64,000 nucleotides of DNA from Streptomyces sp. NBC_00247 (lineage in GTDB: Bacteria > Actinomycetota > Actinomycetes > Streptomycetales > Streptomycetaceae), in contig NZ_CP108093.1 of the NCBI RefSeq assembly GCF_036188265.1, positions 6,477,001 through 6,541,000 of the forward strand, in the 5' to 3' direction. A program made the position numbers and the translations under genes. Below the pieces are notes generated by a model. It was given only the letters and a program-made list of their open reading frames with translations. It had not been told where the DNA came from and made no database searches. This document shows positions 12,599 to 61,552 of the stretch, piece after piece; the stretch's first letter is position 1; each line of letters begins with the position of its first letter.

Positions 12599-12884
12599 GA
12601 TCGGGGACTCTCCTCAACGGACGACAGTGTGTCAGGCACATGATCATAGAGCGGTGTCGCGTCACGACACCGCCTCGGGAGGTGCCCGTCAGCTCCTCTC
12701 CCGGTGTCGCGGATTCCCGGATTCCCTGGCGGCCGGTGCGGGCCGAGCCGTCAGCGGCGCACGGAGCCGGACGGGCCGAAAACCGGCTCGCGTGTCATAA
12801 CCCGCCTCCGGACTCCCTCGTTGCCTCTCATGGGTGCCGGAACGATCAAGGCACCGATCATCCAGTCTGATGGGGAGTTCACGC

Positions 12885-14758: not shown

Positions 14759-14780
14759 GCGCGGCTGTACGACGACGTCC

Positions 14781-14808
14781 GCCGTCCCCGCCCGGCGGCG
14801 GGGACGGC
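14781..14808. terminator. Bidirectional terminator between convergent genes
   Basis: A perfect 12-bp stem, GCCGTCCCCGCC and GGCGGGGACGGC, with a CGGC loop sits between the rightward GNAT gene and the leftward glutamine-synthetase-like gene. It can serve both. Confidence 0.75.
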
Positions 14809-14839
14809 GGCGGGCGGGGACAGCGGACGTGACGCTCCG

Positions 14840-16180: not shown

Positions 16181-16334
16181 GCCGTCCATGCTGGCGTTCG
16201 CGGCAGTACGATCTCCAGCTGCCGAGCGGGAGTTCACTCGTCCGTGAAAGCGGGAGCGGTGAGGTGACGACACCTCGCCCGGGGCTGACGGATCTCCACC
16301 AACCCCCGGCATGCACAGTGGCGTTGCGGGTCGG

Positions 16335-21261: not shown

Positions 21262-21275
21262 GGTGCGGCCCCGGG

Positions 21276-23500: not shown

Positions 23501-23839
23501 ATGCCGCCAGTAGTCCCGCCCTTCCTGATCGGCCTCATCGTCGCGCCGCTGGCCAAGCGCCTGCTCAAGCCGCTGGTGAGTGGAGTCGTCAAGACGTCCG
23601 TCGGTATCGCGATGGAGGTGAAGAAGGCCGCTCAGGAGGCCGGGGAGAACATCCACGACCTCGCGGCCGAAGTGGCCGCCGACGTGGTGGCCGCGCAGAT
23701 CGCCGCCAGTGAGACCGAAGGGCACTCCGTCGTCGGCCAGCGTGCCACCGGGAGCGGCGCCAAGGACGGACCGGAGGGGGACGTGAGGACCCCGAAGATC
23801 CGTGCCACCGCCGGTTCCGCCGCCGGCAAGTCCCACTGA
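23501..23839 (+). CDS. DUF5132 family small protein
   Basis: A 112-residue protein. The N-terminus MPPVVPPFLIGLIVAPLAKR is a hydrophobic, probably membrane-inserted helix. It is followed by an amphipathic helical segment (GIAMEVKKAAQEAGENIHDLAAEVAADVVAAQ) typical of DUF5132, then a polar tail. Actinomycete DUF5132 genes often neighbour transporters bearing HMA-like domains, as here, so a membrane accessory role for the following ABC protein is likely but untested. The ATG at 23501 has GGAGA upstream. Longer readings back to 23231 cross promoter-like DNA and were rejected. Confidence 0.72.
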   Translation: MPPVVPPFLIGLIVAPLAKRLLKPLVSGVVKTSVGIAMEVKKAAQEAGENIHDLAAEVAADVVAAQIAASETEGHSVVGQRATGSGAKDGPEGDVRTPKIRATAGSAAGKSH

Positions 23840-24169
23840 CGGACCGTAAGAGCCGGGGCCGCCGCCCAAGGTCGTCCCGCAATTCCTGCCCGGTGTGCGG
23901 CGTCGGCCGCGGCACCTCACCGCGCCGTCGGAACGTCCCGCACGCATCCCGTACGCGGGTGCTCCTCCGCCTCGCGATGCACCGCGTCCGACGCCCACAC
24001 CGATCCACCAGGGACAGCGGGACGGACTTCGGGCGCGCACGCCGGCCGATCCCGGCGGGGCGTGCCCGGGCGGCGGCCCTTCGCAGGACGTTCGACCGTA
24101 GAGACCCGCTGTCCAGACCCTCCCGTCACGTCAGACCTTCCCGCTCCGTCGCCGCATTCCGTCGTGTCC
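23840..24169 (+). other. Gap without a supported gene
   Basis: These 330 bases lie between the DUF5132 and exporter genes. No reading frame here has a ribosome-binding site or a recognisable product, and no strong hairpin or promoter was found. It may contain the true N-terminus of the exporter if an upstream GTG (24062 or 24161) is used. Confidence 0.5.
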
Positions 24170-26506: not shown

Positions 26507-26609
26507 CCGCAGACACGGGCCGCCCCCGCCGACCGCGTGACACACACCGCGGCCGGCCCGGTCGGCACGCCCTGCGCGCATGCCCACCCATACTTCTGGA
26601 GGTACCCCC

Positions 26610-35600: not shown

Positions 35601-38600
35601 GTCCTCGCCGACCACCCCCAGGTCGCACGGGCCGCCGTGATCGTCCGGCAGGACCGCGCCCAGGACTCCCGCCTGGTCGCCTATCCGGTGCCCGTCACCG
35701 GCGCCGAGCTCCGGCCAGAGGACCTGCGGGCACACCTGCGCGAGCGGTTGCCCGACTACATGGTGCCGACCGCCTTCGTCCCGCTCGACGCCCTGCCGCT
35801 GAACACCAGCGGCAAGGTGGACCGGCGCGCCCTGCCCGAGCCCGAGACCGCGACACCGGCCGGCCGGGAACCGCACACCCCCGCGGAACACGTGCTGGCC
35901 GGGCTGTTCGCCGAGGTACTGGGCCTGCCGCAGGTCAGCGTCGACGACGACTTCTTCGATCTCGGCGGACACTCCCTGCTCGCCACCCGGCTGGTGGCCA
36001 GGGTCCGTACGACGCTGGGCGTGGAACTGCCCCTGCGCACCCTCTTCCGCACCCCGACCGTGGCGGGGCTGGCCGCCGGGCTCGGCGGCGCGGACCGGGC
36101 CCGACTCGCCCTGGAGCGAGGGGAGCGGCCCCAGCTGGTGCCGCTGTCGTCCGCCCAGCGCAGGCTCTGGTTCCTGCGCCAGCTGGAGGGCGCCGACTCG
36201 GTCTACAACATGCCGCTCGCGTGGCGGCTCCGGGGACCGCTGGACCTGGCGGCCCTGGAAGCGGCCCTGGGCGACCTCGCCGACCGCCACGAAACCCTGC
36301 GCACGGTCTTCCCGAGCACGGACGGCGTGCCCCACCAGCGGGTGCTGGCCGCGGGGGAGGCCCGCCCGAGGGTAGCGGTCACGCAGGCCGACGAGTCGGC
36401 CCTGCCGGGACTGCTGGCCGGAGCTGTGGCGCGTGGCTTCGACATCGCGGCCGAACCCCCGTTGCGCGCCGAGGTGTTCGCGCTCTCGGCGGACGAGCAC
36501 GTGCTGCTCCTGGTGATGCACCACATCGCCGGTGACGGCTGGTCGCTCGGTCCGCTCGCCGCCGACCTGGCCACCGCGTACGCGGCGCGCCGGGAGGGCG
36601 GGGCGCCCCGGTGGGCACCCCTGCCGGTGAGTTACGCCGACTACACCCTGTGGCAGCACCGGTTGCTCGGTGAACCGGCGGACCAGGAAAGCCTGTTCGC
36701 CCGAGAGAGCGCCTACTGGACCCGGACGCTCGCGGAACTGCCGGAGCAGATCAGGCTCCCCGCCGACCGCAACCGCCCCGCCACCCCGTCCTACTCCGGC
36801 GGCCACCTGGCGATCGAACTCGACGCCGAACTCCACGACGGGCTGATCCGGCTCGGTCGGCAGCACGGCGCCAGCGTGTACATGGTGCTGCAGGCCGCCC
36901 TGGCCTCGCTGCTGGACAAGCTCGGCGCGGGCACGGACATCCCGGTCGGCAGCCTCATCGCCGGCCGGACCGATCAGGCGCTGGACGACCTCATCGGGTT
37001 CTTCGTCAACACCCTGGTGCTCCGCACGGACACCAGCGGCGACCCGTCCTTCGCCGAGCTGCTGGACCGGGTCAAGGAGAGCGCGCTCGGCGCGTACGCG
37101 CACCAGGACCTGCCGTTCGACCACGTGGTCGAGGCACTCAACCCGTCCCGCTCGCTCGCCCGCCAGCCGCTGTTCCAGGTGCTGCTCGCGCTGCAGAACG
37201 TGCCGAGCACCGAGTTCGCGCTGAGCGGTCTGGACACCGAGATCGTCCTGGTACGGACGCCCACGGCCATGTTCGACCTCGGCTTCCACCTGCTGGAGCG
37301 CGGCGGCCCCGGCGGGGCGGCCGAGGGCGTCGTCGGCCGGGTCGAGTACAGCACCGACCTGTTCGACCCCGCCACGGTCCGGACTCTGGTCGCCCGGTGG
37401 CAGCGGCTGCTCGCGGCCGTGGTCGCCGCACCGGAGCGCCCGCTGAGCAGGATCGACGTCCTCACCGCCGAGGAACGCCGCGAGCTCCTGGTCGACCGCA
37501 ACGACACCGCCCGCCCCGTCCCGGGCTCCACCCTGCCCGCCCTCTTCGAGGCGCGGGTCCGGGCCACTCCGGACGCCCCGGCGGTGCTGTTCGAGGACAC
37601 CGTGCTCACCTACCGCGAGCTGAACCGCCGGGCGAACCGCCTGGCCCACGCGCTGATCGCGCGCGGTGTGGGCCCGGAGCAGACCGTCGCCCTGCGGCTG
37701 CCCCGCTCCGCCGAGTTCGTGGTCGCGGTCCTGGCGGTGCTGAAGACGGGCGCGGCGTACCTGCCGGTCGACCCGGACTACCCGGCCGTCCGCATCGAGT
37801 ACATGCTGCGGGACGCCCGTCCGGCCGTGGTGCTCGACGACCTCGCGGCCGTCACACCGTCCGGCCCGCTGCCGGAGCACGATCCGGCCGTCCCGGTGGA
37901 CCCCCGCCACCCGGCGTACGTCATCTACACCTCCGGCTCCACCGGCCAGCCCAAGGCCGTGGTGATGCCCGCCGGCGGGCTGCTGAACCTGCTGGACTGG
38001 CACCACCGGACCGTCGGCGGCGAACCCGGCACGCGTACCGCGCAGTTCACCGCGATCAGCTTCGACGTCTCGGTGCAGGAGGTGCTCTCCGCGCTGCTGT
38101 ACGGCAAGACCCTCGTGGTGCCGACCGAGGAGCAGCGTCGCAGCTCCGAACTGTTCGCCCACTGGCTGGACCGGCACCGCGTCGAGGAACTGTTCGCGCC
38201 GAACCTGGTGATCGAGGCGATGGCCGAGGCCGCCGAGGAGGCGGGGCTGGACCTGCCGCACCTGCGGCTGGTCGCCCAAGCCGGAGAGGCGATGCGGCTG
38301 GGCGGTGCAGTGCGCCGCTTCCAGGCGCGCCGCCCGGGCCGGGTGCTGCACAACCACTACGGGCCCGCCGAGACCCATGTGATCACCGCCTACGCGCTGC
38401 CGGCCGACCCCGCCGACTGCCCGCTGCCGGTGCCGATCGGCCTTCCGGTCGCCAACTGCCGGGCTTACGTGCTGGACTCGGCCCTGCGACCGGTGGCCCC
38501 CGGCGTGCCGGGCGAGCTGTACCTCGCCGGAGCGGGGCTCGCCCGCGGCTACCTGGACCGGCCGGGGCTGAGCGCCGGACGCTTCGTGGCCGACCCGTAC

Positions 38601-41600
38601 GGCCCGGCGGGTACGCGGATGTACCGCACCGGCGACCTGGTGCGCTGGCGCGCCGACGGCGAGCTGGAGTTCGCCGGCCGGATCGACCACCAGGTCAAGG
38701 TACGCGGCTTCCGGATCGAGCCGGGCGAGATCGAGGCCGAGCTCACCGCGCACCCGGGCGTCGCCCAGGTCGCGGTGCTCGCCCGGGAGGACCGGATCGT
38801 CGCCTACGTCGTCCCCGCCGCCCTCGATTCCGACGAGGCCGGGACCGGGTCCGGTGCGGGGGCGCTGGCCGCGTACCTGCGCGACCGGGTGCCCGCGTAC
38901 ATGGTGCCGACCGCGTTCGTCCTGCTCGACGCGCTGCCGCTGACGCCCAACGGCAAGCTGGACCGGGCAGCCCTGCCCGCTCCGGAGCCCGCGACGGCCG
39001 CGGGCGGCCGGGCGCCGCGCACGCCCCAGGAGCAGATCCTGTGCGAGCTGTTCGCCGAGGTACTGGGCCTCGCCCGGGTCGGGGTCGAGGAGGACTTCTT
39101 CGCGCTGGGCGGGCACTCCCTGCTCGCCACCCGACTGGTCTCGCGGGTCCGGGCGACCCTCGGGGTCGAACTGGAGCTGCGCGCGCTGTTCCGGAACCCG
39201 ACCCCGGCCGGAATGGCGGCCGGACTGCACGACGCCACGACCGCGCGACAGGCCCTGGTGCCCAGGCCCCGCCGCGAACCGATGCCGCTGTCGTTCGCGC
39301 AACGGCGGCTCTGGTTCCTCCAGCAGTTCGGGGCGCCGAGCGCCACCTATCACATGCCGCTCGCCCTGCGGCTGTCCGGAGACCTCGACCGGGACGCGCT
39401 GAGCGCCGCGCTCGTGGACGTCGTGACCCGGCACGAGACCCTGCGCACGGTCTTCCCGCACACGGGCGGAATCCCGCACCAGCGGGTGCTGGGCAGCACC
39501 GAGGCAGCCGTCCCGCTGACCGTGCGTACGGCCGGCGAGAAGGAGGTACGCGCCCTGCTGCGGGAGTCGGCGGTGCGCGCCTTCGACCTGACCTCCGAAG
39601 TACCCCTTCGGGCGCAGCTGTTCGCCGTCGCGCCGGACGAGCACGTGCTGCTGCTGGTCATGCACCACATCGTCGGGGACGGCTGGTCCATGGGCCCGCT
39701 CGCCCGTGACCTCGCCGCCGCCTACACCACCCGGCAGGCCGGCGAGGCGCCCGCGTGGCCGCCGCTGCCGGTGACCTACGGCGACTACACCCTGTGGCAG
39801 CACGAGATCCTCGGCGACGAGAACGACGCCGACAGCGTGTTCACCCGCCAGGTCGCCTACTGGAAGCGGACACTGGCCGGCCTGCCCGAACAGCTCCAAC
39901 TGCCCGCGGACCGGCCGCGCCCGGCCGTCATGTCGTACGGCGGCGATCTGCTGGAACTCAGGATCGACGCCGAACTGCACGTGAGACTCGTGGAGTTGGC
40001 GCGACGGTCCGGTGCCACCCTGTTCATGGTGCTGCAGGCGGCGTTGGCGGCGTTGTACACGCGGTTGGGTGCGGGGGAGGACATCGCGATCGGGAGTCCG
40101 ATCGCGGGTCGTACGGACGAGGCGCTGGACGATCTGGTCGGGTTCTTCGTGAACACGCTGGTGTTGCGTACGGACACGAGTGGTGATCCGAGTTTCGCGG
40201 AGTTGCTGGGCCGGGTGCGGGAGTCGGCGTTGTCGGGTTACGCGCACCAGGACGTGCCGTTCGAGCACCTGGTGGAGGCGCTGAACCCGTCCCGCTCCCT
40301 CTCCCACCACCCCCTCTTCCAGACCGGGCTGGTCGTGCAGAACGCGCCGGGCGGCGACTTCGAGCTGCCTGGCCTGAAGGTCTCCCAGATGGCCGTGCTC
40401 ACCGGGACCGCACGGCTCGACCTGACCTTCGGTTTCGCGGAGGAGCACGGACCCGACGGCGCACCCGCCGGGCTCGGTGGAGCCATCGAGTACAGCACCG
40501 ACCTGTTCAACCGCCCCACGGTCGAGCTCCTGGCCGCCAGGTGGACCCGGCTGCTGGCCGCGGTCGCCGCCGCGCCCGATCGCCCGATCGGCGGGATCGA
40601 CCTGCTCACCGACGGTGAACGCGGCGAACTGCTGCCCACCGCCGAGGACACGGCGCCCGGAGGAAGCCTCCCCGAGCTCTTCGCGGCGCAGGTGGCGTCC
40701 ACGCCGGACGCGGTCGCGCTGGTCTGTGGCGACGAGGAGTTGACGTACCGCCAGTTGGATGTGCGGGCGAACCGGTTCGCGCGTGCGCTGGTCGGGCGGG
40801 GGGTGTGTCCGGAGCAGGTCGTGGCGGTGGCTCTGCCTCGGTCGGTGGAGTCGGTGGTGGCGGTTCTCGGTGTGCTGAAGGCCGGGGCCGCGTACTTGCC
40901 GGTGGATCCGGGGTATCCGCGGTCGCGGATCTCCTTCATGCTGGCGGACGCCCGCCCGGTGGTGGTGGTCGACGATCCGGCGATGGTGACCGATGCGGAC
41001 GGGTTGCCGGAGACCGATCCGGGGGTCGTGGTCGACGTCCGGCATCCGGCCTACGTGATCTACACCTCGGGCTCGACCGGCCGCCCCAAGGGCGTCGCCG
41101 TGAGCCACGCCGGCGTCTTCGGCCTGGTGGCGGCGCAGGTGGACCGGCTCGGCGTGAAGCCGGGCAGCCGGGTGCTCCAGTTCGCCTCGCCGAGCTTCGA
41201 CGCGTCCTTCTGGGACCTCTGCAGCGCGACTCTCACCGGCGCCACCCTCGTGCTGGCCCCGGCCGAGTCCCCGTTGGAAGCCCTGACGGACCGGCGGCTC
41301 GCCGTCACCCACGTGACGCTGCCACCCTCGGCTCTCGCCGCACTGGACACCGCCGCACTCACGGCCACCACGCTGGTGGTGGCGGGCGAGGCGTGCCCGC
41401 CGGAGCTGGTGGCCCGCTGGGCCCCCGGACGCCGGATGATCAACGCCTACGGCCCGACCGAGACGACCGTGTGCGCGACCATGAGCGACCCGCTCTCCCC
41501 GGCATCCGGCGTGCCGCCGATCGGGCGACCGGTGGCCGGCTTCCGGGTGTACGTACTGGACGAGCGGCTGCGCCTCGTACCGCCGGGTGTGGAAGGGGAG

Positions 41601-44600
41601 TTGTACGTCGCCGGGCCAGGTCTGGCACGCGGCTACCTGAACCGGCCGGGTCTGACGGCAGGGCGGTTCACCGCCTGCCCGTTCGGACCGGCGGGTACGC
41701 GGATGTACCGCACCGGCGACCTGGTGCGGCACCGGACCGACGGCGCGCTGGAGTACGTCGGCCGCGCGGACCAGCAGGTGAAGGTCCGCGGCTTCCGCGT
41801 CGAGCCCGGCGAGGTCGAGGCCGCACTGGCCGAGCACCCCGCCGTCGCCCAGGCGGCCGTCGTGGCCCGGGACGACCGGCTCGTCGGCTACGTGGCGACC
41901 CGCTCCCACCAGGCGGTACGTCCCGCGGAGCTGGCCGCGCACCTGCGCGAGCGGCTGCCGGACTACCTGGTGCCGTCCGTCTTCGTGGTGATGGACGCGC
42001 TGCCGTCGACGCCGAACGGGAAGCTGGACCGGGCGGCGCTGCCCGCGCCCGGAGCGACTTCCGAGGGCAGCGGGCGGATGCCGCGCACGCCGCAGGAGCA
42101 GATCCTCGCCGGGCTGTTCGCCGAGGTGCTGGACGTGGCGGAGGTCTCGGTCGACGACGACTTCTTCGCCCTGGGCGGGCACTCCCTGCTCGCCACCCGG
42201 CTGGTCGCCAGGGCGCGTTCGGTGCTCGGCGTGGAGCTCGGGCTGCGGGCACTCTTCCAGGCGCCCACCGTGGCCGGTCTGGCACAGACGCTGACCGAGG
42301 CGGGCCGGGCGCGCCCGGCGCTGACCGCGTACGAGCGGCCCGCGACCGTGCCGCTCTCCTTCGCCCAGCGCCGGCTCTGGTTCCTGCACCGCATGGACGC
42401 CACTGCCGCCACCTACCACATCCCGCTGGCCCTGCGGCTGACCGGAACACTCGACCGTGGAGCGCTGGACCAGGCGCTCGCTGACGTGGTGGCCCGGCAC
42501 GAGAGCCTGCGGACGGTGTTCCCGGAAGTCGGCGGCGTACCGTGCCAGCGCGTACTGGACTCCGCCCCGGTCCGCCTGCCCGTCCGGCCGGCCGAGGTGA
42601 CACGGGCCGAACTGGCCGACCGCCTCGCCGAGTCCGCCCGGCAGCCCTTCGACCTGGCGACGGAGCCGCCGCTGCGGGCGGAACTGTTCGCCGTCGCGCC
42701 GGACGAGCACGTGCTGCTGCTGGTCATGCACCACATCGCCGCCGACGGCTGGTCCACCGGACCGCTCGCCCGCGACCTCGCCGAGGCGTACGCGGCCCGC
42801 TGCGAGGGCAGGACGGTGAACCGGCCTTCCCTGCCCGTGAGTTACGCCGACTACACGCTGTGGCAGCGCGAGCTGCTCGGCGACGCCGCCGACCCGCGCA
42901 GCCGGTTCGCCGAGCAACTCGACTACTGGAAGCGGCAGCTGTCCGACCTGCCCGAGCTGCTCCAGCTGCCCACCGACCGTCCGCGCCCCGCCGTCGCCGG
43001 CTGGCGCGGCGACCACATCGGACTGGAACTGGACTCCGAACTGCACGCGAACCTCGTCGAGCTGGCGCGGAGCACCGGAACGAGTCTGTTCATGGTGTTG
43101 CAGGCGGCGTTGGCGGCGTTGTACACGCGTTTGGGTGCGGGGGAGGACATCGCGATCGGGAGTCCGATCGCGGGTCGTACGGACGAGGCGCTGGACGATC
43201 TGGTCGGGTTCTTCGTGAACACGTTGGTGTTGCGTACGGACACGAGTGGTGATCCGAGTTTCGCGGAGTTGCTGGGCCGGGTGCGGGAGTCGGCGTTGTC
43301 GGGTTACGCGCACCAGGACGTGCCGTTCGAGCACCTGGTGGAGGCGCTGAACCCGTCCCGCTCCCTCTCCCACCACCCCCTCTTCCAGACCATCCTGGCC
43401 GTGCAGAACGCCCCCATGGGACGGTTCTCGCTGCCCGGACTGGACGTCGCCACCTACGCCGTGGCGACCAGGACCGCCAAGTTCGACCTCGGGGTCAGCA
43501 TGGTCGAACAGTTCGGCCCGGACGGAAGCCCGGCCGGAATCCTCGGCGCGGTCGAGTACGCGACCGACCTGTTCGACCGGTCGACGGTCGACTCCCTGGT
43601 CCGGCGCTGGACGCTCCTGCTGGAGGCCGTCACCGCCGACCCGGAGCAGGCCATCGGAGGGATCGACCTCCTCGGCACCGGCGAGCGGCACCGGCTGCTG
43701 GAACAGGACAACGCGACCACCCGGGACGTGGACACCGTCCCGCTGCCGCAGGCCCTCGCGGCGCAGGTGGCGTCCACGCCGGACGCGGTCGCGCTGGTGT
43801 GTGGCGACGAGGAGTTGACGTACCGCCAGTTGGATGTGCGGGCGAACCGGTTCGCGCGTGCGCTGGTCGGGCGGGGGGTGTGTCCGGAGCAGGTCGTGGC
43901 GGTGGCTCTGCCTCGGTCGGTGGAGTCGGTGGTGGCGGTTCTCGGTGTGCTGAAGGCCGGGGCCGCGTACTTGCCGGTGGATCCGGGGTATCCGCGGTCG
44001 CGGATCTCCTTCATGCTGGCGGACGCCCGCCCGGTGGTGGTGGTCGACGATCCGGCGATGGTGACCGATGCGGACGGGTTGCCGGAGACCGATCCGGGGG
44101 TCGTGGTCGACGTCCGGCATCCGGCCTACGTGATCTACACCTCGGGCTCGACCGGCCGCCCCAAGGGCGTCGTCGTGAGCCACGCCGGTGTGGCGAGCCT
44201 GGTCGCCGGACAGATCGAGCGCTTCGCGATCGAACCCGGCAGCAGGGTCCTCCAGTTCGCCTCGCCCAGCTTCGACGCGTCGGTCTCCGAGATCTTCACC
44301 GCGCTGCTGTGCGGCGCGGCCCTGGTGCTGCCCCCCGCGGCGGAGCCGCTTGCCGCACTGACCGATCCGGGCCTCGGCGTCACCCACGTGACCGTGCCCC
44401 CTTCCGTCCTGGCCACCGTGCCGGACGGCGGGATCACCGCGTCCACGCTGGTGGTGGCGGGCGAGGCGTGCCCGCCGGAGCTGGTGGCCCGCTGGGCCCC
44501 CGGACGCCGGATGATCAACGCCTACGGCCCGACCGAGACGACCGTGTGCGCGACCATGAGCGACCCGCTCTCCCCGGCGGCCGGCGTGCCGCCGATCGGC

Positions 44601-47600
44601 CGGCCGATCGCCAACGCCCGGGTGTACGTGCTGGACGACCGGCTGCGGCCGGTGCCGACCGGCGTCACCGGGGAGCTGTACGTGGCGGGCGCGGGCCTCG
44701 CGCGGGGCTACCTGAACCGGCCGGGCCTGACGGCCGGAAGGTTCACCGCCTGCCCGTTCGTACCGGGTGAGCGCATGTACCGCACCGGCGACCTGGTGCG
44801 CCGGCGCGGCGACGGCCAGCTGGAGTACGCCGGCCGCGCCGACGACCAGGTCAAGGTCCGCGGCTTCCGCGTCGAGCCCGGCGAGGTCGAAGCCGCGCTC
44901 GCCGAGCACCCCGCCGTCGCCCGGGCCGCCGTCGTGGCCCAGGACGACCGGCTCGTCGGCTACGTCGTCCCGCACCGGGACACCGCCCGGGACGACGGGC
45001 TGGAAGCCGACCACGTGGGCGAGTGGCAGGACATCTACGACGCTCTGCCCATCGCCCCCGAAGAAGCGGCCTTCGGACACAACTTCGTCGGCTGGAACAG
45101 CAGTTACGACTCCGGCCCGATCCCTGTCGAGCAGATGCGCGAGTGGCGGGACGCCACCGTGGCCCGCATCCTGGCCCTGCGTCCGCGCAGGGTGCTGGAA
45201 GTCGGCGTCGGTACCGGCCTGTTGCTCTCGCAGGTCGCGCCCCACTGCGAGACCTACTGGGCGACCGACTTCTCCGCCACCGCGATCGACGCCCTGACCG
45301 CCCAAGTGGCGCACGAGGAAGGGCTGACCGGGCGTGTGGAGCTGCGGACCCGCCCGGCGCACGACATCGAAGGGCTGCCGGCAGGGGAGTTCGACACCAT
45401 CGTGATCAACTCGGTGGTGCAGTACTTCCCTTCCGCCGACTACCTCGCCGACGTGATCGGAAAGCTGATGGGGCTGCTCGCCCCCGGCGGTGCGCTCTTC
45501 ATCGGTGACGTCCGCAACCTGCGGCTGCTGCGCCCGCTGGCCACCGCCGTCCAGCTGCACCGGACCGGCGACGGCACCGACCCCGAGGACGTGCGCCGCG
45601 CGGTGGAGCAGGCCGTCAGGGTGGAGAAGGAACTCCTGGTCGACCCGGACTTCTTCACCGCGCTGCGGACCCGTGGCACCGGCATCGGCGCGGTGGTCGT
45701 GGAGGTCAAGCGCGGCCTGCACCACAACGAACTCTCCCGGTACCGCTACGACGTGACGCTGCACCACTCACCGGCCGCCCCCGAGGCCCCGGGCCGGTCC
45801 GTCGAGCTGGCGTGGGGGCGGCAGATCGCCGCGCCGGCCGAGCTGCGTGAACTGCTCGCCCAGCGGCACGCCCCCGACGTGCTCCGGCTCACCGGGGTGC
45901 CGAACCGCCGCGTGGTGCGCGAAGCCGCCCTGGCCAGGGCGGTGCGGGACGGGGAGGCCCGGCCCGCGGAGCTGATGGAGCGGCTGCGCGCGGCCGGGGA
46001 ATCCTCCGAGGAGAGCGGCCTCCTCGATCCGGAGGAGTTCCACGCCCTCGGCCGGGAGCTCGGCCGCGTGGTCGCGGTCACCTGGTCGGCGACCGCGTCC
46101 GACGCCCTCGACGTCGTCTTCGCCGACCCGCGTACCCTCCACGGCTCCCCGGTCGAGGCGTACCGGCCGACCGGGGCGGCCGACGGGGCGCTGTCGTCGC
46201 TGACCAACCGTCCGACCGGCAGCCGGGGGACCGGCGCCCTCCTCGGCGAACTCCGCGACTGGCTGCGCGGGCGGCTGCCCGACTACCTGGTTCCCTCGGC
46301 GTTCGTGGCGCTGGACGCGCTGCCGTTGACCGGCAGCGGCAAGCTCGACCGGCGCGCACTGCCCGCCCCCGACCTCGGCGCCGCCGCGGCCGGACGGGCG
46401 CCGCGCACCCCGCAGGAACAGCTCCTCGCCGAACTCTTCGCCGAGGTGCTCGGGCTGGCACAGGTGGGGGTCGAGGACAGCTTCTTCGACCTGGGCGGGC
46501 ACTCGCTGCTGGCGACCCGCCTGGCCTCCAGGGTCCGCACGACCCTCGGCGCCGAGCTGGAGGTCCGGACCCTGTTCGAGACCCCGACGGTGGCCGCGCT
46601 GGCGGCCCGGCTGGACGGCTCCGGAGCGGCGCGGCCCGCGCTGACCGCCCGCCCCCGCCCCGAGCGGGTCGAGCTCTCCTTCGCCCAGCGCCGCCTGTGG
46701 TTCCTGCACCGGATGGACGGGCCGAGCGCCACCTACAACATGCCGCTCGCACTGAGCCTGACCGGCGACCTCGACCGCTCCGCCCTGCACGCCGCGCTCG
46801 CCGACGTGATCGGCCGGCACGAGAGCCTGCGGACCGTCTTCCGCGAGACCGACGGAGTCCCGTACCAGGTCGTGCTGAGCACCGAACGGGCGCGCCCGGC
46901 GCTCCCGGTGGTCGAGATCGACGAGAGCCGGCTGGCCGGGGCCCTGGCGGACGGGGCACGGCACGGATTCGACCTCGCCGAGGACCTGCCGGTCCGGGCG
47001 GAGCTGTACGCGCTCGCCCCCGACCGGCACGTACTCCTGGTCGTGGTGCACCACATCGCCGCGGACGGCTGGTCGATGGGACCGCTCTCCGCCGACCTGG
47101 CGGCGGCCTACGCGGCGCGCTGCCGGGGCGAGGAACCCGCGTGGTCCCCGCTGCCGGTGCAGTACGCCGACTACACCCGCTGGCAGCGCGACCTGCTCGG
47201 CGACGCCGCCGACCCGGAGAGCCTGTTCGCCCGGCAACTCGGCTACTGGAAGGAGGAGCTGGCGGGCATCCCGCAGCAGGTGCAACTGCCCGCCGACCGG
47301 CCCCGGCCGCCGGTGGCCTCCCAGCGCGGCGACCGGGTCGTGGTCCAACTGGACCCCGAACTGCACCAGGCACTGCGCGACCTCGCCGCGGCACGCGGCG
47401 CCAGCATGTTCATGGTGCTGCAAGCCGGTCTCGCCGCCCTGCTCACCCGGCTCGGTGCCGGTACGGACATCCCGGTCGGCAGCCCGATCGCCGGACGGAC
47501 CGACCAGGCACTCGACGAGCTCGTCGGCTTCTTCGTCAACACCCTGGTGCTGCGCACCGACACCGGCGGCGACCCCGGATTCGCCGACCTGCTCGGCCGG

Positions 47601-50600
47601 GTGCGGCAGAAGGCGCTCGGCGCGTACGACCACCAGGACGTGCCGTTCGAGTACCTGGTCGAGGTGGCCAATCCGGTGCGGTCGCTCGCCCACCACCCGC
47701 TGTTCCAGGTGATGCTGGCCCTGCAGAACGCGCCGCTCGGCGAGTTCGCGCTGCCAGGCCTGGAGACGGGGCACGTGGCGGCCCCGACCGGGACCGCACG
47801 GGTCGACCTGACGTTCAGCCTGGCCGAGCGGTTTTGCCCGGACGGCGGCGCCGACGGTCTGGCCGGCGCGGTGGAGTACGCCACCGACCTCTTCGACGCG
47901 TCCACCGTGGAGCTGCTGTTCGAGCGCTGGGCCCGCCTGCTGCGCGCGGCGGTCGCCGACCCGGACCGCCCGATCAGCCGGATCGACCTCATGTCCGACG
48001 AGGAACGCCACCGGCTGCTGTACGAGGTCAACGACACGGCCGCGGAGCTGCCCTCGGCCTCGGTGCCGGAGCTCTTCGCCCGGCAGGTGCGGGCCACCCC
48101 GGACGCGGTGGCGGTCGTGGCGGGCGCCACCGAGCTGACCTACGCGGAACTCGACCTGCGGGCCGACCGCCTGGCGAGGGCGCTGATCCGCCAGGGCGTG
48201 CGCCCCGAGACGCCCGTCGCGGTCCTGCTGGACCGCTCGGCGGAGCTGGTCGTGGCGATCCTGGCGATCATCAAGGCCGGCGGCGCCTACGTACCGCTGG
48301 ACCCGCGCTTCCCCTCCTCCCGGATCGACCTGATCCTGCGGGAGAGCGGAGCTTCCGTCGTGCTCACCGAGGAGGTGCTCACCGCCCTGGTGCGGTCCGC
48401 GGCAGGCGGTCCTGGCGTGGTCGAGGTGCCGTGCCGGGAGGACCAGGTGGCGTACATCATGTACACCTCCGGTTCCACCGGGCGTCCGAAGGGCGTGGCC
48501 GTCACCCACCGGGACGTGGTGGGTCTCGCGCTGAGCCCCGAGTGGCGCGGTGGCGGACACGAGCGGGTGCTGATGCACTCCCCGACCGCCTTCGACCTCT
48601 CGACCTACGAACTCTGGGTCCCGCTGCTGGGCGGCGGGACGATCGTGGTCGCACCGCCCGAGCGGATCGACCTCGACCTGCTGCACCACACCATCACCAC
48701 GCACCGGGTGACCGGGCTGTGGCTGACCGCCGGACTCTTCCGGCTGGTCGCCGAGGAGCGTCCGGGCCTGCTCGCCGGGGTGCGCGAGGTGTGGACCGGC
48801 GGCGACGTGGTCTCCCCCGCCGCCGCCGCCCGGGTCCTCGCGGCCTGCCCCGGCATCGAGGTGGTCAACGGCTACGGCCCCACCGAGGCCACCACCCTGG
48901 CCACCTGCCACCGGGTGCGCGAACTCCCCGAGAACGCCGCGACCGTGCCGATCGGCGCGCCGATGGCGAACATGCGCACCTATGTGCTCGACGACCGGCT
49001 GCGGCCGGTGCCGACGGGCATGGTCGGTGAGCTGTACCTCGCGGGGACGGGCGTGGCCCGCGGCTACTTCGGCCGGCCCGGCCTCACCGCGGAGCGCTTC
49101 ACCGCCGATCCGTACGGCCCGCCCGGGAGCCGTATGTACCGCACCGGCGACCTCGCCTGGTGGCTCCCCGACGGCACGCTGGAGTTCGCCGGACGCGTCG
49201 ACCACCAGGTCAAGCTGCGCGGACTGCGGATCGAGCCCGGAGAGATCGAGGCGGTCCTGGCGGGCTGCGCGGGCGTCGCCCAGGCCGCCGTGGTCGCCCG
49301 CGAGGACCGGCCGGGGGACAAGCGGCTGGTCGCCTACCTGGTGGCCGCGCCGGAAGGCGTGCCCGAGACGGCCGAACTGGCCGGCCGACTGCGCCGGGAA
49401 CTCCCCGACTACATGGTGCCGGCGGCGTTCGTCACCGTGGACGCGCTGCCGCTGACCGCCAACGGCAAGCTCGACCGGGCCGCCCTGCCCGCCCCCGACT
49501 ACGGGGCGCCGGCCGTCGGGCGCGGACCGCGGACCCCGCAGGAGCAGCTCCTGTGCGGCCTCTTCGCCGAAGTCCTCGGACGCGATCAGGTCGGCATCGA
49601 CGAGGGCTTCTTCGACCTGGGCGGTCACTCGCTGCTGGCCGCGCGGCTGGCCTCCCGGGTCCGCGAGACCCTCGGCCTGGAGCTGGGCCTGCGGCTGCTG
49701 TTCGAGGCGCCGACCGTGGCCGGGCTCACCGAACGCCTGGCCATGAACGATCCGGAAGACGCCTTGGACGTGCTGCTGCCCCTGCGGTCGACCGGTACGG
49801 AGCCGGCCCTGTTCTGCGTCCACCCCGGCGGCGGCATCAGCTGGTCGTACAGCGGGCTGCTGAACCACCTCGGCCCGCAGCACCCGGTCTACGCGCTCCA
49901 GGCACGCGGCCTCGGCCGGCCCGAGCCGCTGCCCACCTCCTACGAGGAGATGGCGTCCGACTACGCCGACCACGTCCAGAAGATCCAGCCGCAGGGCCCC
50001 TACCTGCTGCTCGGCTGGTCCGCGGGCGGGCTGATCGCCCACGCGCTGGCCTGCGAACTCCAGGCGCGCGGCGAGCGGACCGCGCTGCTGGCGATCCTCG
50101 ACGCGTACCCGGTGAAGGACGTGCGGTTCGAGGAGGAGCCGGTGCCCACCGTGCGGGACGTGCTCGTCGGAGTGCTCGACGTCGACCCGGACGAGCTGGG
50201 CGACCGGGACATCACCTACGCCGAGGTCGCCGAGGTGCTGAACCGGCGGGGCAGCGCCCTGGCCGGGCTGAACGAACGGCAGGTCGAGGTGATCGTCCAG
50301 ATCATGATCAACAACGCCAAGCTGGCGGTCGACTTCGTACCCGGCACGTACGACGGGGACCTGCTGCTCTTCAACTCCACGATCGGCCGGGGCGACGACG
50401 ACGCCGGCCCGAAGGTCTGGCACCCGTACATCGGGGGCCGGATCGAATCGCACGAGGTCACCACCCGGCACGACCAGATGACCCAGGCGGGATCACTGGC
50501 CCAGATCGGGCCGATCCTGGCCGCCCGGATCGCCGGAGCCACCACCGCTTCCCAAGACGCCGGAGCCACCACCGCTTCCGGAGCCGCACCGGCCCCCCGC

Positions 50601-50657
50601 GATGCCGTCACCACCGCGGACGCCGGTGACACCACCCCTTCCCCTCAGGAGGACTGA
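26610..50657 (+). CDS. Giant heptamodular non-ribosomal peptide synthetase
   Basis: One chain of 8015 residues. Order: C1-A1-T1, C2-A2-T2, C3-A3-T3, C4-A4-T4, C5-A5-T5, C6-A6(N-methyltransferase)-T6, C7-A7-T7-TE. All seven T domains have GGHSLLA with the phosphopantetheine Ser. C2-C7 have HHxxxDG; C1 has HHLVLDA. A-domain cores YTSGSTG (A2 has HTSGSTG) and the GKLDR or GKVDR lysine are present in all seven. No epimerisation domain is visible. Pocket residues predict X1-Thr-X3-Pro-Phe-N-MeTyr-X7. ATG 26610 was chosen because GGAGG lies seven bases upstream; an in-frame ATG at 26580 lacks one. Codon 113 (26946-26948) is TTA, the only one I found in the gene, implying bldA-dependent translation. 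MbtH begins three bases after the stop. I do not recognise the product. Confidence 0.97.
26637..29720 (+). other. NRPS module 1: starter-type C, A1 (unassigned), T1
   Basis: C1 (residues about 10-434) begins [13 protein letters not shown] and resembles starter C domains of acylated peptides and siderophores (DptA or DhbF-like) rather than the six internal C domains. Its active site is HHLVLDA (His140-Asp145), with Ala in place of the usual Gly. A1 (451-959) pocket by eye, positions 235/236/239/278/299/301/322/330/331: D A N E V A L V N. I cannot match this to a known substrate; the polar N239, E278 and N331 suggest a polar or basic residue. T1 carries Ser1005. The start of A1 shares a 592-bp tract with A3. 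Confidence 0.8.
27917..28508 (+). repeat. 592-bp tract in A1, near-identical to 34277-34868 in A3
   Basis: The two tracts align without gaps at a constant offset of 6360 bases with about three differences. They span the C-A linker to just past core A3 and use many more T- and TTG-type codons (TTGGCGGTGTTGGG, GTTGCTGAGGTT) than the flanking sequence. A second shared tract, about 28975-29213 with 35323-35561, covers A6-A8. Between them the substrate-binding cores differ. Confidence 0.92.
29782..32895 (+). other. NRPS module 2: C2, A2 (Thr), T2
   Basis: C2 (about 1058-1501) has HHIAGDGWS. The A2 (1519-2019) pocket reads D F W N V G M V H plus the invariant Lys, which is the established threonine code (DFWNIGMVHK or DFWNVGMVHK). 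The supporting segments are [19 protein letters not shown] and [12 protein letters not shown]. Thr at position 2 offers a hydroxyl for macrolactonisation by the terminal TE, as in several depsipeptides. T2 follows at 2030-2096. Confidence 0.9.
32965..36075 (+). other. NRPS module 3: C3, A3 (unassigned), T3
   Basis: C3 (about 2119-2554) has HHIAGDGWS. The A3 (2571-3081) pocket by eye: D A D G I L Y V D. There is no match I can name; D239 and D331 could favour a basic or polar side chain. Its first 592 bp and its A6-A8 part are near-identical to A1, but the substrate-binding core differs. The lysine motif is SGKVDRR. T3 is at 3088-3156. No epimerisation domain follows. Confidence 0.78.
34277..34868 (+). 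repeat. 592-bp tract in A3, partner of 27917-28508
   Basis: The second copy of the module 1/3 duplication. It ends at the base before the segment encoding the specificity pocket. Confidence 0.92.
36139..39215 (+). other. NRPS module 4: C4, A4 (Pro-like), T4
   Basis: C4 (about 3177-3612) has HHIAGDGWS. The A4 (3641-4126) pocket reads D V Q L A A H V I, differing from the proline code DVQLIAHVV at two conservative sites. [15 protein letters not shown] and [10 protein letters not shown] are proline-domain hallmarks. The A3 core ends QPKA rather than the usual PKG. Proline or a substituted proline/pipecolate is expected. T4 is at 4134-4203. Confidence 0.85.
40020..40325 (+). repeat. 306-bp tract in C5, near-identical to 43086-43391 in C6
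   Basis: The offset is 3066 bases with about three silent differences. It covers the late C-domain block from [19 protein letters not shown] to [12 protein letters not shown]. It shows the same atypical codon choice as the shared A-domain tracts (GCGTTGGCGGCGTTG). Confidence 0.9.
40681..41113 (+). repeat. 433-bp tract in A5, near-identical to 43756-44188 in A6
   Basis: The offset is 3075 bases. A second identical tract resumes at 41368-41524 and 44443-44599 with exactly the same offset. The intervening 254 bp (41114-41367 and 44189-44442) are equal in length but diverged, and contain the codon for pocket position 239 that separates the Phe and Tyr codes. Confidence 0.92.
42352..46600 (+). 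other. NRPS module 6: C6, A6 with N-methyltransferase insert (N-MeTyr), T6
   Basis: C6 (about 5248-5683) has HHIAADGWS. The A6 pocket reads D A S T V A A V C, the tyrosine code, differing from A5 only at position 239 (Ser for Trp). An N-methyltransferase is inserted after core A8 at about residues 6128-6386. It begins [15 protein letters not shown] and has SAM motif [16 protein letters not shown], then [11 protein letters not shown] and [15 protein letters not shown]. The A domain then resumes and ends [10 protein letters not shown]-methyl-tyrosine is predicted. T6 is at 6596-6664. Confidence 0.9.
43756..44188 (+). repeat. 433-bp tract in A6, partner of 40681-41113
   Basis: The second copy of the module 5/6 shared tract, ending at the same codon in front of the exchanged core. 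Confidence 0.92.
46672..49720 (+). other. NRPS module 7: C7, A7 (unassigned, hydrophobic pocket), T7
   Basis: C7 (about 6688-7123) has HHIAADGWS. The A7 (7151-7628) pocket by eye: D L Y W W G G T L. The W278, G301, G322 and T330 set is shared with valine-type codes (DALWIGGTF), but L236, Y239 and W299 are unusual. An aliphatic or arylglycine-like residue is possible and none is proven. T7 is at 7638-7704, in front of the thioesterase. Confidence 0.8.
49770..50505 (+). other. NRPS terminal thioesterase domain
   Basis: An alpha/beta hydrolase of about 245 residues. It begins [20 protein letters not shown] and has the nucleophile elbow GWSAGG (Ser7804), a downstream Asp in LAILDAYPV and a likely His near the end (TRHDQM). 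It releases the heptapeptide by hydrolysis or cyclisation. A disordered Ala/Thr tail with a short internal direct repeat (50532-50579) follows. Confidence 0.88.
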
Positions 50658-50660
50658 CAC

Positions 50661-50876
50661 ATGACCAACCCCTTCGACGACCAGGACGGCACCTTCCTCG
50701 TCCTCGTCAACCACGAGAACCAGCACTCCCTCTGGCCGCGGTTCGCGGACGTACCCGAGGGCTGGACCGTCGCCCACGGCCCCGACACCCACGCCGCCTG
50801 CCTGGCCCACGTCGAGGAGTCCTGGACCGACATGCGGCCCAAGAGCCTCGCCGACGCCATGGACACCCGGCGGTAG
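50661..50876 (+). CDS. mbtH: MbtH-like NRPS chaperone
   Basis: A 71-residue MbtH family protein, which binds and activates A domains. The signature residues are all present: NHENQHSLWP, VPEGW, HAACLAHVEESWTDMRPKSL (NxExQxSLWP...PxGW...CLxxxxxxWxDxRP). An AGGAGG ribosome-binding site overlaps the last NRPS codons, and the start is three bases after the NRPS stop, so it is translated from the same mRNA. Its presence suggests some of the seven A domains need it for solubility or activity. Confidence 0.96.
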   Translation: MTNPFDDQDGTFLVLVNHENQHSLWPRFADVPEGWTVAHGPDTHAACLAHVEESWTDMRPKSLADAMDTRR

Positions 50877-52198
50877 TGGCCGACATGACCTCGACCGAAA
50901 CCGTGGACGGGGCCCGCGACACCGCGGGCCCCGCCCGGCCCGGCGGCCTCGCCGTGTGCCCCGCCCAGCCGCGCGGCCCCCTCGCGGGCCCCGGCGGGCC
51001 CGACGGCCTCGCCGCGGCCCTGCTCACCCCGGAAGCCCGGCGGGACCCGTACCCGTTGTACGCCCGCATGCGGCGCGACGACCCGGTCCACCGCAGCACC
51101 CAGGGCATCTGGTACCTCACCCGCCACGCCGACGTGGAGGCGGCCCTCGGCGACCTGCGGCTGTCCAACGACCGGGACAGGATGACCCGTGCCTACAGCT
51201 CGCTCGGCGGCGACCTCAAAGCCCTCAGCCGGCTCACCGAGCGGCTCGGCCGGGTGATGAGCAACACCGACCCGCCGGACCACGCCCGGCTGCGCAAACT
51301 GGCCAACAAGGCGTTCACCGCCCGGCGTGTCGAAGCCCTGCGCGACGGCGTACAGCGGATCGTCGACCGGCTCGTCGACGAGGCGGTCGCGGCCGGTCCG
51401 GACGTGGAGCTCATCGAGGCGGTCGCCTCGCCCCTGCCGATGTCCGTCGTCTGCGAGCTCTTCGGCATTCCGGACGAGGACCGGCCGCGGGTCAAGAGCT
51501 GGTTCAGCCGCTTCGGCCGGCTCAGCGAGGACATCGACAAGTCCGAGGCGGCGATCGACGGTTACGAGGAGTACCTGTCCGGGCTCATCCGGCAGCGCCG
51601 GCGTGAACCGGGTGACGACCTGATCAGTGCCCTGGTCGCCACCCAGACCAAGGACGACCGGCTCACCGACTCCGAACTGCTGTCCACCTGCTTCGTCCTG
51701 ATCACCGCCGGGGACGAGACCACCACCCACCTCATCAGCAACGGCGTGCTGGCCCTGCTGCGCAACCCGGACCAATGGGCCAGGCTGCGTGCGGAGCCGA
51801 CACTGATCCGCGGGGCGGTGGAGGAACTGGCCCGCTACGACACGGTGACCCAGGCGATCGTCCGGGTGGTCGCGGAGGACCTGGAGATCGGCGGACGGAC
51901 CTTGCGCGAGGGGGAGCTGGTGTACCTGTTCCTGGGCGCGACCAACCGCGATCCCGAGCGCTTCGAGGACCCCGACCGGCTCGACCTGTCGCGTCCCGGC
52001 AACCGACACCTGAGCTTCGGCCACGGCCCGCACTTCTGTCTCGGCGGCCCGCTGGCCAAACTCCAGGCGGAGGTGGCCATCGGCACGCTGGCGCGCCGGC
52101 TTCCCTCGCTGCGCCTGGCCGACGGGGCGGCGCTGGAGTGGCGGGACAACCCGTTGCAGCGCCGGCTGGCCACCCTCCCGCTCGTCCACCGACCATGA
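50876..52198 (+). CDS. Cytochrome P450 (tailoring)
   Basis: A 440-residue bacterial class I P450. It has I-helix ITAGDETTTH, ExxR in EELAR, and heme loop FGHGPHFCLGGPLAKLQ with the axial Cys. The N-terminus has an unusually Pro/Gly-rich extension (about residues 10-45). The GTG start overlaps the mbtH stop (TAGTG); ATG 50885 is possible. Location inside the NRPS operon makes hydroxylation, epoxidation or aryl coupling of the peptide or of a tethered amino acid likely. No P450-recruiting X domain exists in the NRPS. Ferredoxin partners are not in the window. Confidence 0.92.
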   Translation: MADMTSTETVDGARDTAGPARPGGLAVCPAQPRGPLAGPGGPDGLAAALLTPEARRDPYPLYARMRRDDPVHRSTQGIWYLTRHADVEAALGDLRLSNDRDRMTRAYSSLGGDLKALSRLTERLGRVMSNTDPPDHARLRKLANKAFTARRVEALRDGVQRIVDRLVDEAVAAGPDVELIEAVASPLPMSVVCELFGIPDEDRPRVKSWFSRFGRLSEDIDKSEAAIDGYEEYLSGLIRQRRREPGDDLISALVATQTKDDRLTDSELLSTCFVLITAGDETTTHLISNGVLALLRNPDQWARLRAEPTLIRGAVEELARYDTVTQAIVRVVAEDLEIGGRTLREGELVYLFLGATNRDPERFEDPDRLDLSRPGNRHLSFGHGPHFCLGGPLAKLQAEVAIGTLARRLPSLRLADGAALEWRDNPLQRRLATLPLVHRP

Positions 52199-52224
52199 AC
52201 GACCACGAAGGAGCGGTACCGACC

Positions 52225-52986
52225 ATGGCCCGAGAGTTCGAGGTACGCCGAGAGCAGGACCTGCCCGTCACGCCCGAGCAGGTCTGGGACGCTGTGGCCA
52301 CCGGCGCCGGCAACCTCGGCTGGCTCTATCCGATGGAGATCGAGCCGCGCGTCGGCGGAAAGGCGACCCGGGGAGACGCCACGGTCGTTGCGTGGGAGCC
52401 CCCGTACCACTTCGCCGTCCGGGCGACCCAGGACGGCGGGTTCTCCAACACCCTCAGCTACCGGGTCGAACCGGCCGACGGCGGCACGAGCCACCTGCGG
52501 ATGGGAATCCACTGGGTGCACACGGGCGTCGTCGACGACGCCTGGAACTGGGACGCCAAGACGGACGTGGCCGAGAAGTACGTGGACTTCCACCAGCACG
52601 CCCTGGCCGAGTACCTCAGGCACTTCGCCGGCCGCCCCGCCGTCTACGTCAGGTCCCAGCAGCCCGAACCCACCGCCGATCCGGCCGACTTCGCCGCGCT
52701 GCGCCGGCGCCTCGGCCTCGCCGAGGACGCCGTCGTCGGCGACCGGTTCACCCTTTTCGCCCCTGGCCCCGGCCAGGGCCCCGTCGAGGTGGTCGTCGAC
52801 TGGCTCAGCACCGACTTCGTCGGCCTGCGAGGTCCGGACGCCCTGTACCGGTTCTTCAACGGCAGTACCTGGAACGTGCCGATCTGGCTCGGACACCACC
52901 TGTTCGCCGAACACACCGACGAGCAGCAGGCCACCAAGGAGTGGACGGCCTGGCTCAACGACACCGCCCCCGTTCAGGAGATCTGA
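52225..52986 (+). CDS. SRPBCC (START/AHSA1-like) family protein
   Basis: A 253-residue protein. The N-terminal 140 residues are an SRPBCC helix-grip fold (REFEVRREQDLPVTPEQVWDAVATGAGNLGWL, PRVGGKATRGD, HFAVRATQDGGFSNTLSYRVEP). The SRPBCC domain ends with a long helix (KYVDFHQHALAEYLRHFAG). A second, less recognisable half (about 150-253) is rich in Trp and Phe. Such folds bind hydrophobic ligands and include cyclases and aromatases. AAGGAG lies 11 bases ahead of ATG 52225; an alternative ATG at 52195 overlaps the P450 stop. It could hold or reshape the NRPS product or an aromatic intermediate. The role is unknown. Confidence 0.78.
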   Translation: MAREFEVRREQDLPVTPEQVWDAVATGAGNLGWLYPMEIEPRVGGKATRGDATVVAWEPPYHFAVRATQDGGFSNTLSYRVEPADGGTSHLRMGIHWVHTGVVDDAWNWDAKTDVAEKYVDFHQHALAEYLRHFAGRPAVYVRSQQPEPTADPADFAALRRRLGLAEDAVVGDRFTLFAPGPGQGPVEVVVDWLSTDFVGLRGPDALYRFFNGSTWNVPIWLGHHLFAEHTDEQQATKEWTAWLNDTAPVQEI

Positions 52987-53186
52987 TGGAGACCGCCACC
53001 CGGAGACTGCTCTTCGCCGCCGAACTCGTCGAGGAGAACGGCACGTACGCCCTCGTCGTCCAAGACGTGCGAACGGGCTCCGTGCAGACGACCCCGGTCC
53101 CCAAAGCCATGGTCGACAAGCTCCCGACGTTCCTCTCGGCGCTCACCGCCAAGTTCAACCCGGTTCCACAGCGTCGCCGTTGGTAG
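52986..53186 (+). CDS. 66-residue orphan protein at the end of the NRPS operon
   Basis: A small protein with beta-strand-rich first half (RLLFAAELVEENGTYALVVQDV) and a helical second half (PKAMVDKLPTFLSALTAKF). It has no signal peptide, membrane helix or cysteine and no family I recognise. The ATG overlaps the SRPBCC stop (TGATG), so it is translationally coupled and very likely expressed. Composition and codon use match the neighbouring genes. A hairpin terminator lies 153 bases downstream. Confidence 0.68.
   Translation: METATRRLLFAAELVEENGTYALVVQDVRTGSVQTTPVPKAMVDKLPTFLSALTAKFNPVPQRRRW

Positions 53187-60376: not shown

Positions 60377-61552
<1,176 letters not shown>

Follow-up and report, generated by a model that had tools for sequence, protein, structure and literature searches.

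A 64,000-nucleotide stretch of the genome of Streptomyces sp. NBC_00247 (contig NZ_CP108093.1, positions 6,477,001 to 6,541,000, hereafter the window) carries an operon that is built around a seven-module nonribosomal peptide synthetase (NRPS) and ends with genes for an MbtH-like protein, a cytochrome P450, a two-part SRPBCC protein, and a protein of 66 residues. The P450 and the SRPBCC protein form a set with the NRPS. As judged from the predicted module order, the operon very probably makes a cyclodepsipeptide containing 3-amino-6-hydroxy-2-piperidone (Ahp), a serine-protease inhibitor of the cyanopeptolin/streptopeptolin type. We favor, with moderate confidence, a reading in which the P450 oxidizes a proline of this peptide, the SRPBCC protein is its partner, and the 66-residue protein works with an exporter unit encoded at the other end of the operon.

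Among 392 genomes of the genus, 16 encode the P450 orthologue (E ≤ 1e-100), and exactly these 16 also encode the cassette-type SRPBCC protein (at least 51% identity by tblastn, E ≤ 7.6e-64); the two genes are adjacent in every one. In each of these genomes, an MbtH gene precedes the pair, and the gene of the 66-residue protein is the next one after it. The probability of such co-occurrence by chance is 9e-29 (hypergeometric, ignoring kinship), and the pairwise protein distances of the P450 and SRPBCC proteins correlate with r = 0.955. The set is also found on eight named contigs, four of which equal a locus of the genome sample (99.7–100%), giving 20 distinct loci. The initial annotation had joined the P450, SRPBCC, and 66-residue proteins in a tailoring trio. 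The outcome that was to refute this, a trio widespread outside NRPS loci, did not arise in the genomes searched, and the P450 and SRPBCC protein are found only together; the 66-residue protein, however, is not part of the set. The genes discussed are as follows.

50661..50876, + strand: MbtH-like protein, 71 residues (PF03621, 6.3e-30)
50876..52198, + strand: cytochrome P450, 440 residues from GTG (PF00067, 1.9e-29); proposed oxidase of Pro-4
52225..52986, + strand: two-part SRPBCC protein (PF10604), likely start ATG 52225; proposed P450 helper or cyclase
52986..53186, + strand: 66-residue protein of a family linked to DUF5132/ABC exporter loci
23498..23839, + strand: DUF5132 protein (PF17195, 8.3e-19), upstream of the NRPS, start codon uncertain
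24110..26506, + strand: ABC exporter (PF00664/PF00005) with an HMA_2-like N-terminus (HMA_2 6.7e-5, below cut-off)
26580..50657, + strand: seven-module NRPS, 8025 residues (Pfam domains, A-domain codes)
37926..38825, + strand: core of the module 4 A domain (approximate), Pro-type code DVQFAAHVIK; proposed source of Ahp

The three reading frames described by the initial annotation as overlapping genes after mbtH are present, but they overlap only in part. In the window, one-nucleotide overlaps join MbtH to the P450 and the SRPBCC protein to the 66-residue protein. An overlap between the P450 and SRPBCC genes requires the in-frame SRPBCC start at ATG 52195. The start at ATG 52225 is preceded by GGAG and aligns with the start of SRPBCC paralogues, and therefore an SRPBCC protein of about 253 residues is likelier and the P450/SRPBCC overlap probably does not exist. 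Across the cassette clusters examined, 3–141 nucleotides separate the SRPBCC and 66-residue matches. Median dN/dS values over the 16 genomes (P450 0.33, SRPBCC 0.42, 66-residue protein 0.42, MbtH 0.49) indicate that the reading frames are genes. Several NCBIfam models match the P450, but all stay below their cut-offs. This collection has no model that passes its threshold for MbtH or the SRPBCC protein, and none that matches the 66-residue protein. Models of anti-phage defence gave no match.

Predicted peptide and its class

According to Pfam and motif counts, the NRPS contains seven Condensation, seven AMP-binding, and seven carrier domains, arranged as seven C-A-T modules. Module 6 includes a methyltransferase (Methyltransf_12), and a terminal Thioesterase (TE) follows module 7. 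Pfam detects no further Condensation-type domain beyond the seven, and the synthetase therefore lacks an epimerase. The A-domain codes were read by alignment in GrsA numbering. They are DANEAGLVNK in module 1 (X1), DFWNVGMVHK in module 2 (Thr), DADGGGYVDK in module 3 (X3), DVQFAAHVIK in module 4 (Pro), DAWTVAAVCK in module 5 (Phe), DASTVAAVCK in module 6 (Tyr or Phe, alongside the methyltransferase), and DLYWWGGTLK in module 7, which we take to be Val-like. The predicted module order is X1-Thr-X3-Pro-Phe-NMe(Tyr/Phe)-Val-like-TE.

The published plan of cyanopeptolins has Thr at ring position 1, Ahp at position 3, an N-methyl aromatic residue at position 5, Val, Leu, or Ile at position 6, and an ester closure onto position 1; class members are known from Chondromyces and Streptomyces olivochromogenes (PMC10608790). 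Both Ahp and N-methyl tyrosine are described for streptopeptolins A–C of S. olivochromogenes (PMC9966715). Modules 2, 4, 6, and 7 of the window NRPS map to ring positions 1, 3, 5, and 6, and the TE to the closure. The methyltransferase and the code DASTVAAVCK of module 6 predict the N-methyl aromatic residue at position 5, and the Thr code of module 2 together with the TE after module 7 predicts a six-residue ring closed from position 1 to position 6. The predicted order of Thr, X, Pro (proposed to become Ahp), Phe, N-methyl aromatic, and Val-like residues, the TE, the lack of an epimerase, and the hypervariable residue before the proposed Ahp agree with cyanopeptolins and streptopeptolins. 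The all-L configuration given for Ahp peptides (PMC9358669) fits the seven C domains without an epimerase. Seven modules are also ascribed to anabaenopeptilide (PMC3252866). The window differs in that a single giant synthetase of 8025 residues would build the peptide, and in that the product is predicted here from genes.

The NRPS was compared in 15 of the 20 distinct cassettes, 14 of which have all seven modules, whereas that of G014 is cut to five. G175 was left out, and the DNA of L013, L016, L017, and L020 reaches no further than the final module or the final two, which carry the same codes. The Pro, Phe, and DASTVAAVCK modules are kept in 15/15 clusters. The Pro module, assigned to ring position 3, has the code DVQFAAHVIK, DVQFAAHVVK, or DVQYAAHVVK. 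The Thr code is present in all 14 clusters that cover module 2, and the last module reads DLYWWGGTLK in 12 clusters and DAYWWGGTFK in three. Module 3, which precedes the proposed Ahp, is hypervariable, with eight codes in 15 clusters: DADGGGYVDK (5), DGDGAGYVDK (3), DANEAGLVNK, DADEAGLVNK, DADNSGYVDK, DVWTAAAVIK, and the Thr codes DFWSVGMVHK (G014 and G062) and DFWNVGMVHK (G321). Module 1 is mildly variable (three codes in 14 clusters), and the remaining modules hardly vary. The hypervariability of X3 fits the published statement that most of the diversity of Ahp peptides is found on either side of Ahp, where an Abu unit occurs (PMC9358669). The product class is already known, as Ahp-type peptides are in print.

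Genes resembling an Orn/Arg decarboxylase, a GNAT protein, and a glutamine synthetase lie upstream of the NRPS (window 12834–16516) and are kept in G016, G024, and G038; an unusual residue at X1 or X3 may come from their activity. The Gfo/Idh and KASIII genes that flank this region have no match in these three genomes. In G225 and G230, the long NRPS reading frame is interrupted.

The P450 and the SRPBCC protein

The P450 has the features of a catalytic enzyme: an intact ExxR motif (317), the acid-threonine pair of the I helix (AGDET, 278), and the heme-cysteine motif (FGHGPHFCLG, 381). Its start is GTG 50876 or ATG 50885, and the first ~40 residues are variable. Across 396 genomes sampled from the whole phylum, the best relative besides the window protein is 48% identical (G581). 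Nineteen loci of related P450s (L124–L142, four from the same genus) contain no SRPBCC, MbtH, or 66-residue match within ~1.5 kb. The top match in the PDB is 8w6z, named only "Cytochrome P450"; of the solved relatives that are named for a pathway, TamI and PikC are the closest. The initial annotation pointed to the lack of an X domain that would recruit the P450; the domain is indeed missing, but this is no anomaly, since recruitment of P450s through X domains belongs to NRPSs of the glycopeptide type. The clusters of G014, G062, and G321 (L005, L006, L102) are divergent sisters, with 66–68% identity in the P450 and 51–58% in the SRPBCC protein; they have a Thr code at X3 and, downstream, encode a type II thioesterase together with another P450 (~35% identical).

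Profile and fold together place the SRPBCC protein in its superfamily, albeit through a low-confidence model. The match to PF10604 (Polyketide_cyc2; 6.8e-6, 26.9 bits) lies 0.5 bit under the cut-off of 27.4 and rises to 29.5 bits when neighboring residues in frame are included. The predicted structure is poor (mean pLDDT 50.8) and was built from an alignment of nine sequences, the other eight being 82–89% identical to that of the window. Within this model, the N-terminal half (residues 11–149) adopts a helix-grip fold with Z-scores of ~12 to SRPBCC proteins, among them 8jmy_A (Z 12.3, rmsd 2.6, 114 aligned, residues 13–142). The fold of this half also resembles those of the aromatase/cyclases TcmN, ZhuI, and BexL and of DynU16 (Z 10.5–11.3), which however belong to polyketide or enediyne pathways and are absent from the PDB sequence matches. 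The evidence for the fold covers the N-terminal half only, as block means of pLDDT in the C-terminal half are 24–46. An internal duplication of the two halves was tried and rejected (hhalign probability 0.2), the shallow alignment making this a weak test.

The C-terminal half, which the initial annotation singled out as unrecognized, contains many invariant residues and is common to relatives of ~40% identity that align over the full length of the protein. It is therefore a feature of a widespread family rather than an addition specific to the operon. In the search of the 392 genomes (E ≤ 1e-30), SRPBCC matches were found in 135, and 125 genomes contain paralogues of 37–45% identity. Seventeen paralogue loci, two of which lie outside the family but within the order, were inspected for their context: a helix-turn-helix (HTH) match lies upstream in 15, and the ~1.5 kb flanks of all 17 contain no P450 or MbtH match. 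The cassette protein thus shares ~40% identity over residues 10–256, including the C-terminal half, with an HTH-linked two-part SRPBCC family of Actinomycetota, but differs in context, with no HTH match at any of its 20 loci. The 20 cassette sequences lie on one side of a branch of the SRPBCC tree (support 100/99). The tree carries a long-branch warning and has a midpoint root only; so rooted, it is compatible with a single recruitment of the cassette protein from the HTH-linked family. Among plasmid records, 20 match the SRPBCC protein, all at less than 60% identity and none at cassette level; a gene is listed in 14 of them, 13 of which have an HTH gene under the match. A weak match in G047 (E 8.9e-15, residues 20–193), 54 kb from the gene of the 66-residue protein of that genome, was set aside.

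The SRPBCC fold is less unusual in NRPS operons than the initial annotation supposed. Polyketide_cyc2 has 13 matches in this genome, and SRPBCC domains as such are therefore common. A precedent within an NRPS cluster is IchJ of the ichizinone pathway, an SRPBCC/polyketide-cyclase-like protein encoded with an MbtH protein and proposed to close a ring after an oxidase has acted; its inactivation left only traces of ichizinones (PMC12144821). The pathway of IchJ differs in using a flavin oxidase and in leading to a pyrazinone, and the likeness is one of description. In a literature search, no paper was found that joins SRPBCC, nonribosomal peptide, cytochrome P450, and MbtH.

The 66-residue protein and the exporter unit

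The initial annotation stated that the last protein of the operon matches nothing known. It has no match in Pfam, as in NCBIfam, but a profile search finds relatives. Its model is predicted to have a β-β-β-α-α arrangement (mean pLDDT 80). The best Foldseek matches, to retroviral integrases over 30–61 columns (best E 0.089; query TM 0.43–0.47 in the best 50 rows), were judged meaningless. A profile of 12 sequences has 40 matches in 34 of the 392 genomes: 16 in cassettes, five as second copies near cassettes (G016, G024, G038, G280, G439), and 19 in 18 other genomes, of which those in G325 and G351 and the second one in G411 (E ~0.005) may be due to chance. The genomic context was evaluated for 20 non-cassette copies, the five second copies and 15 others, leaving out G246, G325, G351, and the second G411 match.

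Of these 20 copies, all but that of G411 have a DUF5132 match in the surrounding 1.5 kb, and in these 19 the match is no more than about 0.5 kb away. An exporter homologue (at least 45% identical to that of the window) is present in the DNA examined around 12 of the 15 other copies, but not in G050, G357, or G411. The background frequency of DUF5132 is 4 in 41 related genomes (G000, G014, G016, G024), and the same four are the only ones of the 41 with a gene for the 66-residue protein. The window itself has its DUF5132 and exporter genes just upstream of the NRPS. The DUF5132 and exporter neighbors recur in loci that lack both the P450 and the SRPBCC protein, and the 66-residue family therefore tracks them rather than the pair with which the initial annotation had grouped it. 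We conclude from this genomic context that the 66-residue protein probably belongs with the DUF5132/exporter unit. The ABC exporter is likely the exporter of the product. The HMA_2-like N-terminus was looked for in the window exporter only. No paper mentioning DUF5132 was found in the literature search.

The set of DUF5132, exporter homologue, and 66-residue protein is present in the window (23498–26506 for the first two) and recurs at L049 and L087–L091, and at L083 without an exporter match; some of these loci contain no credible A-domain motif in the DNA examined. A second type of cluster (L045–L048, L082, L084, and L086, corresponding to G073, G047, G050, G032, G243, G279, and G256) combines an NRPS, DUF5132, and the 66-residue protein, beside whose gene stand those for MbtH and an acyl-CoA-dehydrogenase-like protein. 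In these seven loci, no cassette-type P450 or SRPBCC protein was found in the DNA examined. Six of them have the A-domain code DAGDVGMVDK, the contig of G050 being too short; an exporter homologue is present in all but G050, where none was matched, and both G047 and G050 encode a DAO-type FAD oxidoreductase.

A peptide-type ABC import operon (window 17640–23048, − strand; binding protein, permeases, and ATPases, partly read by eye) precedes the NRPS in the window, whereas in G016 and G038 such an operon follows the cassette. A 391-residue EF-Tu-like reading frame (window 60377–61552), recognized by eye, is possibly a divergent second copy.

Proposed route to Ahp and its alternatives

The expected product is X1-[Thr-X3-Ahp-Phe-NMeTyr(or Phe)-Val-like], in which the TE would close the ring as a lactone onto Thr. 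The P450, intact in the window next to a synthetase whose Pro module is kept in every cluster compared, would hydroxylate C5 of Pro-4 in the NRPS-bound or released peptide. The hemiaminal would open to a glutamate semialdehyde, and the amide nitrogen of Phe-5 would close the six-membered Ahp ring. We hold the oxidation of Pro-4 by the P450 to be highly probable from the predicted peptide. That the SRPBCC protein takes part in Ahp formation is a view towards which the conserved pairing inclines us. As a dedicated partner of the P450, it may hold the peptide or the semialdehyde in its helix-grip pocket for oxidation, ring rearrangement, or both, whereas the 66-residue protein would act with the DUF5132/ABC exporter unit and not with the pair. 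A more specific role, which we put forward tentatively, is that of an "Ahp cyclase" directing a stereoselective attack of the next amide nitrogen on the semialdehyde or 5-hydroxyproline. A P450 plus a helper protein reportedly form Ahp in crocapeptin biosynthesis, according to the title of the work of Viehrig et al. from 2013; the window pair is likened to the crocapeptin one on that title. Because Ahp-type peptides and a route with a P450 plus helper are already in print, the "new tailoring set" of the initial annotation is too strong. Among the parts of seven papers covered by the literature search (PMC10608790, PMC12489977, PMC12838216, PMC9966715, PMC3252866, PMC13122637, PMC9358669), no account of Ahp formation was found.

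The initial annotation proposed oxidation followed by SRPBCC-guided cyclization of aromatic residues. The sequence of events suits a pair that occurs exclusively together after mbtH, but the target is much likelier to be the module 4 Pro, since the predicted peptide fits the Ahp-cyclodepsipeptide plan. Oxidation of residues 5 and 6 by the P450, with the SRPBCC protein guiding their cyclization, could draw on the two neighboring aromatic modules kept in 15/15 clusters; yet the aromatic pair already fits the cyanopeptolin plan, the conversion of Pro to Ahp needs an oxidant, and the second P450 of G014, G062, and G321 is a better candidate for an extra oxidation, which makes this the least probable of the alternatives. 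A plain Pro-containing depsipeptide, with Pro, Val, or X1 hydroxylated and no Ahp formed, is nearly as improbable. Many related P450s are simple hydroxylases, and TamI and PikC are the nearest solved relatives named for a pathway, but the rest of the ring agrees with the Ahp class, as does the hypervariability before Pro. The P450 might also make Ahp alone or with a spontaneous rearrangement, leaving the SRPBCC protein an accessory that binds the product, protects the producer, acts as a chaperone, or carries the product to the exporter. Binding of hydrophobic ligands is known for SRPBCC proteins, closure of the semialdehyde can be spontaneous, and the HTH linkage of the nearest relatives hints at ligand sensing or stress over catalysis. 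We nevertheless consider an accessory role rather unlikely, as the cassette SRPBCC gene directly follows that of the P450 in 16/16 genomes and no P450 orthologue without it was found in the 392 genomes. Somewhat less likely still is that the 66-residue protein acts on the NRPS or thioesterase, as an MbtH-like or TEII-linked helper, instead of with the DUF5132/exporter unit. Its gene lies 0–90 nucleotides from a type II thioesterase match in G014, G062, and G321, as do the second copies in G016, G024, G038, G280, and G439. However, G238, G284, G427, and G357 encode the 66-residue protein and DUF5132 with no credible A-domain motif in 60, 60, 60, and 20 kb, respectively (motif search, not profile; one nonsense string match in G427 was set aside), and the first three also carry an exporter homologue.

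Several observations weigh against the reading that we prefer, of an Ahp-type operon with a P450 proline oxidase, an SRPBCC partner, and a 66-residue protein of the exporter unit. Product and enzyme roles are predicted from genes alone, the X1 and X3 codes have no residue assignment, and the Val-like call for DLYWWGGTLK is tentative. Distances between MbtH proteins correlate with those of the P450 and SRPBCC proteins nearly as well (r 0.89 and 0.88), and part of the P450-SRPBCC correlation therefore stems from the joint descent of the cluster genes; all cassettes were found in one genus and one cluster family, and the co-occurrence could likewise reflect cluster inheritance. The SRPBCC model is of low quality, the likeness to the crocapeptin pair is drawn from a title, and cyclization of the semialdehyde could proceed without an enzyme. 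As to the 66-residue protein, the four genomes of the DUF5132 background are all cassette genomes, its gene in the cassette is close to that of the SRPBCC protein and in the window is 29 kb from the DUF5132 gene, and eight copies have a type II thioesterase match beside them.

Peptides of the cyanopeptolin type, of which Ahp is the hallmark, inhibit serine proteases, among them elastase, chymotrypsin, and trypsin. The compact P450/SRPBCC pair next to a synthetase in 20 distinct loci is a tractable system for studying the conversion of Pro to Ahp and for predicting new protease inhibitors from genomes. The little-studied DUF5132/ABC exporter unit is common to NRPS and other loci. If the SRPBCC protein were an Ahp cyclase, its fold would gain a new reaction, and the two proteins would constitute a portable pair for turning proline into Ahp.

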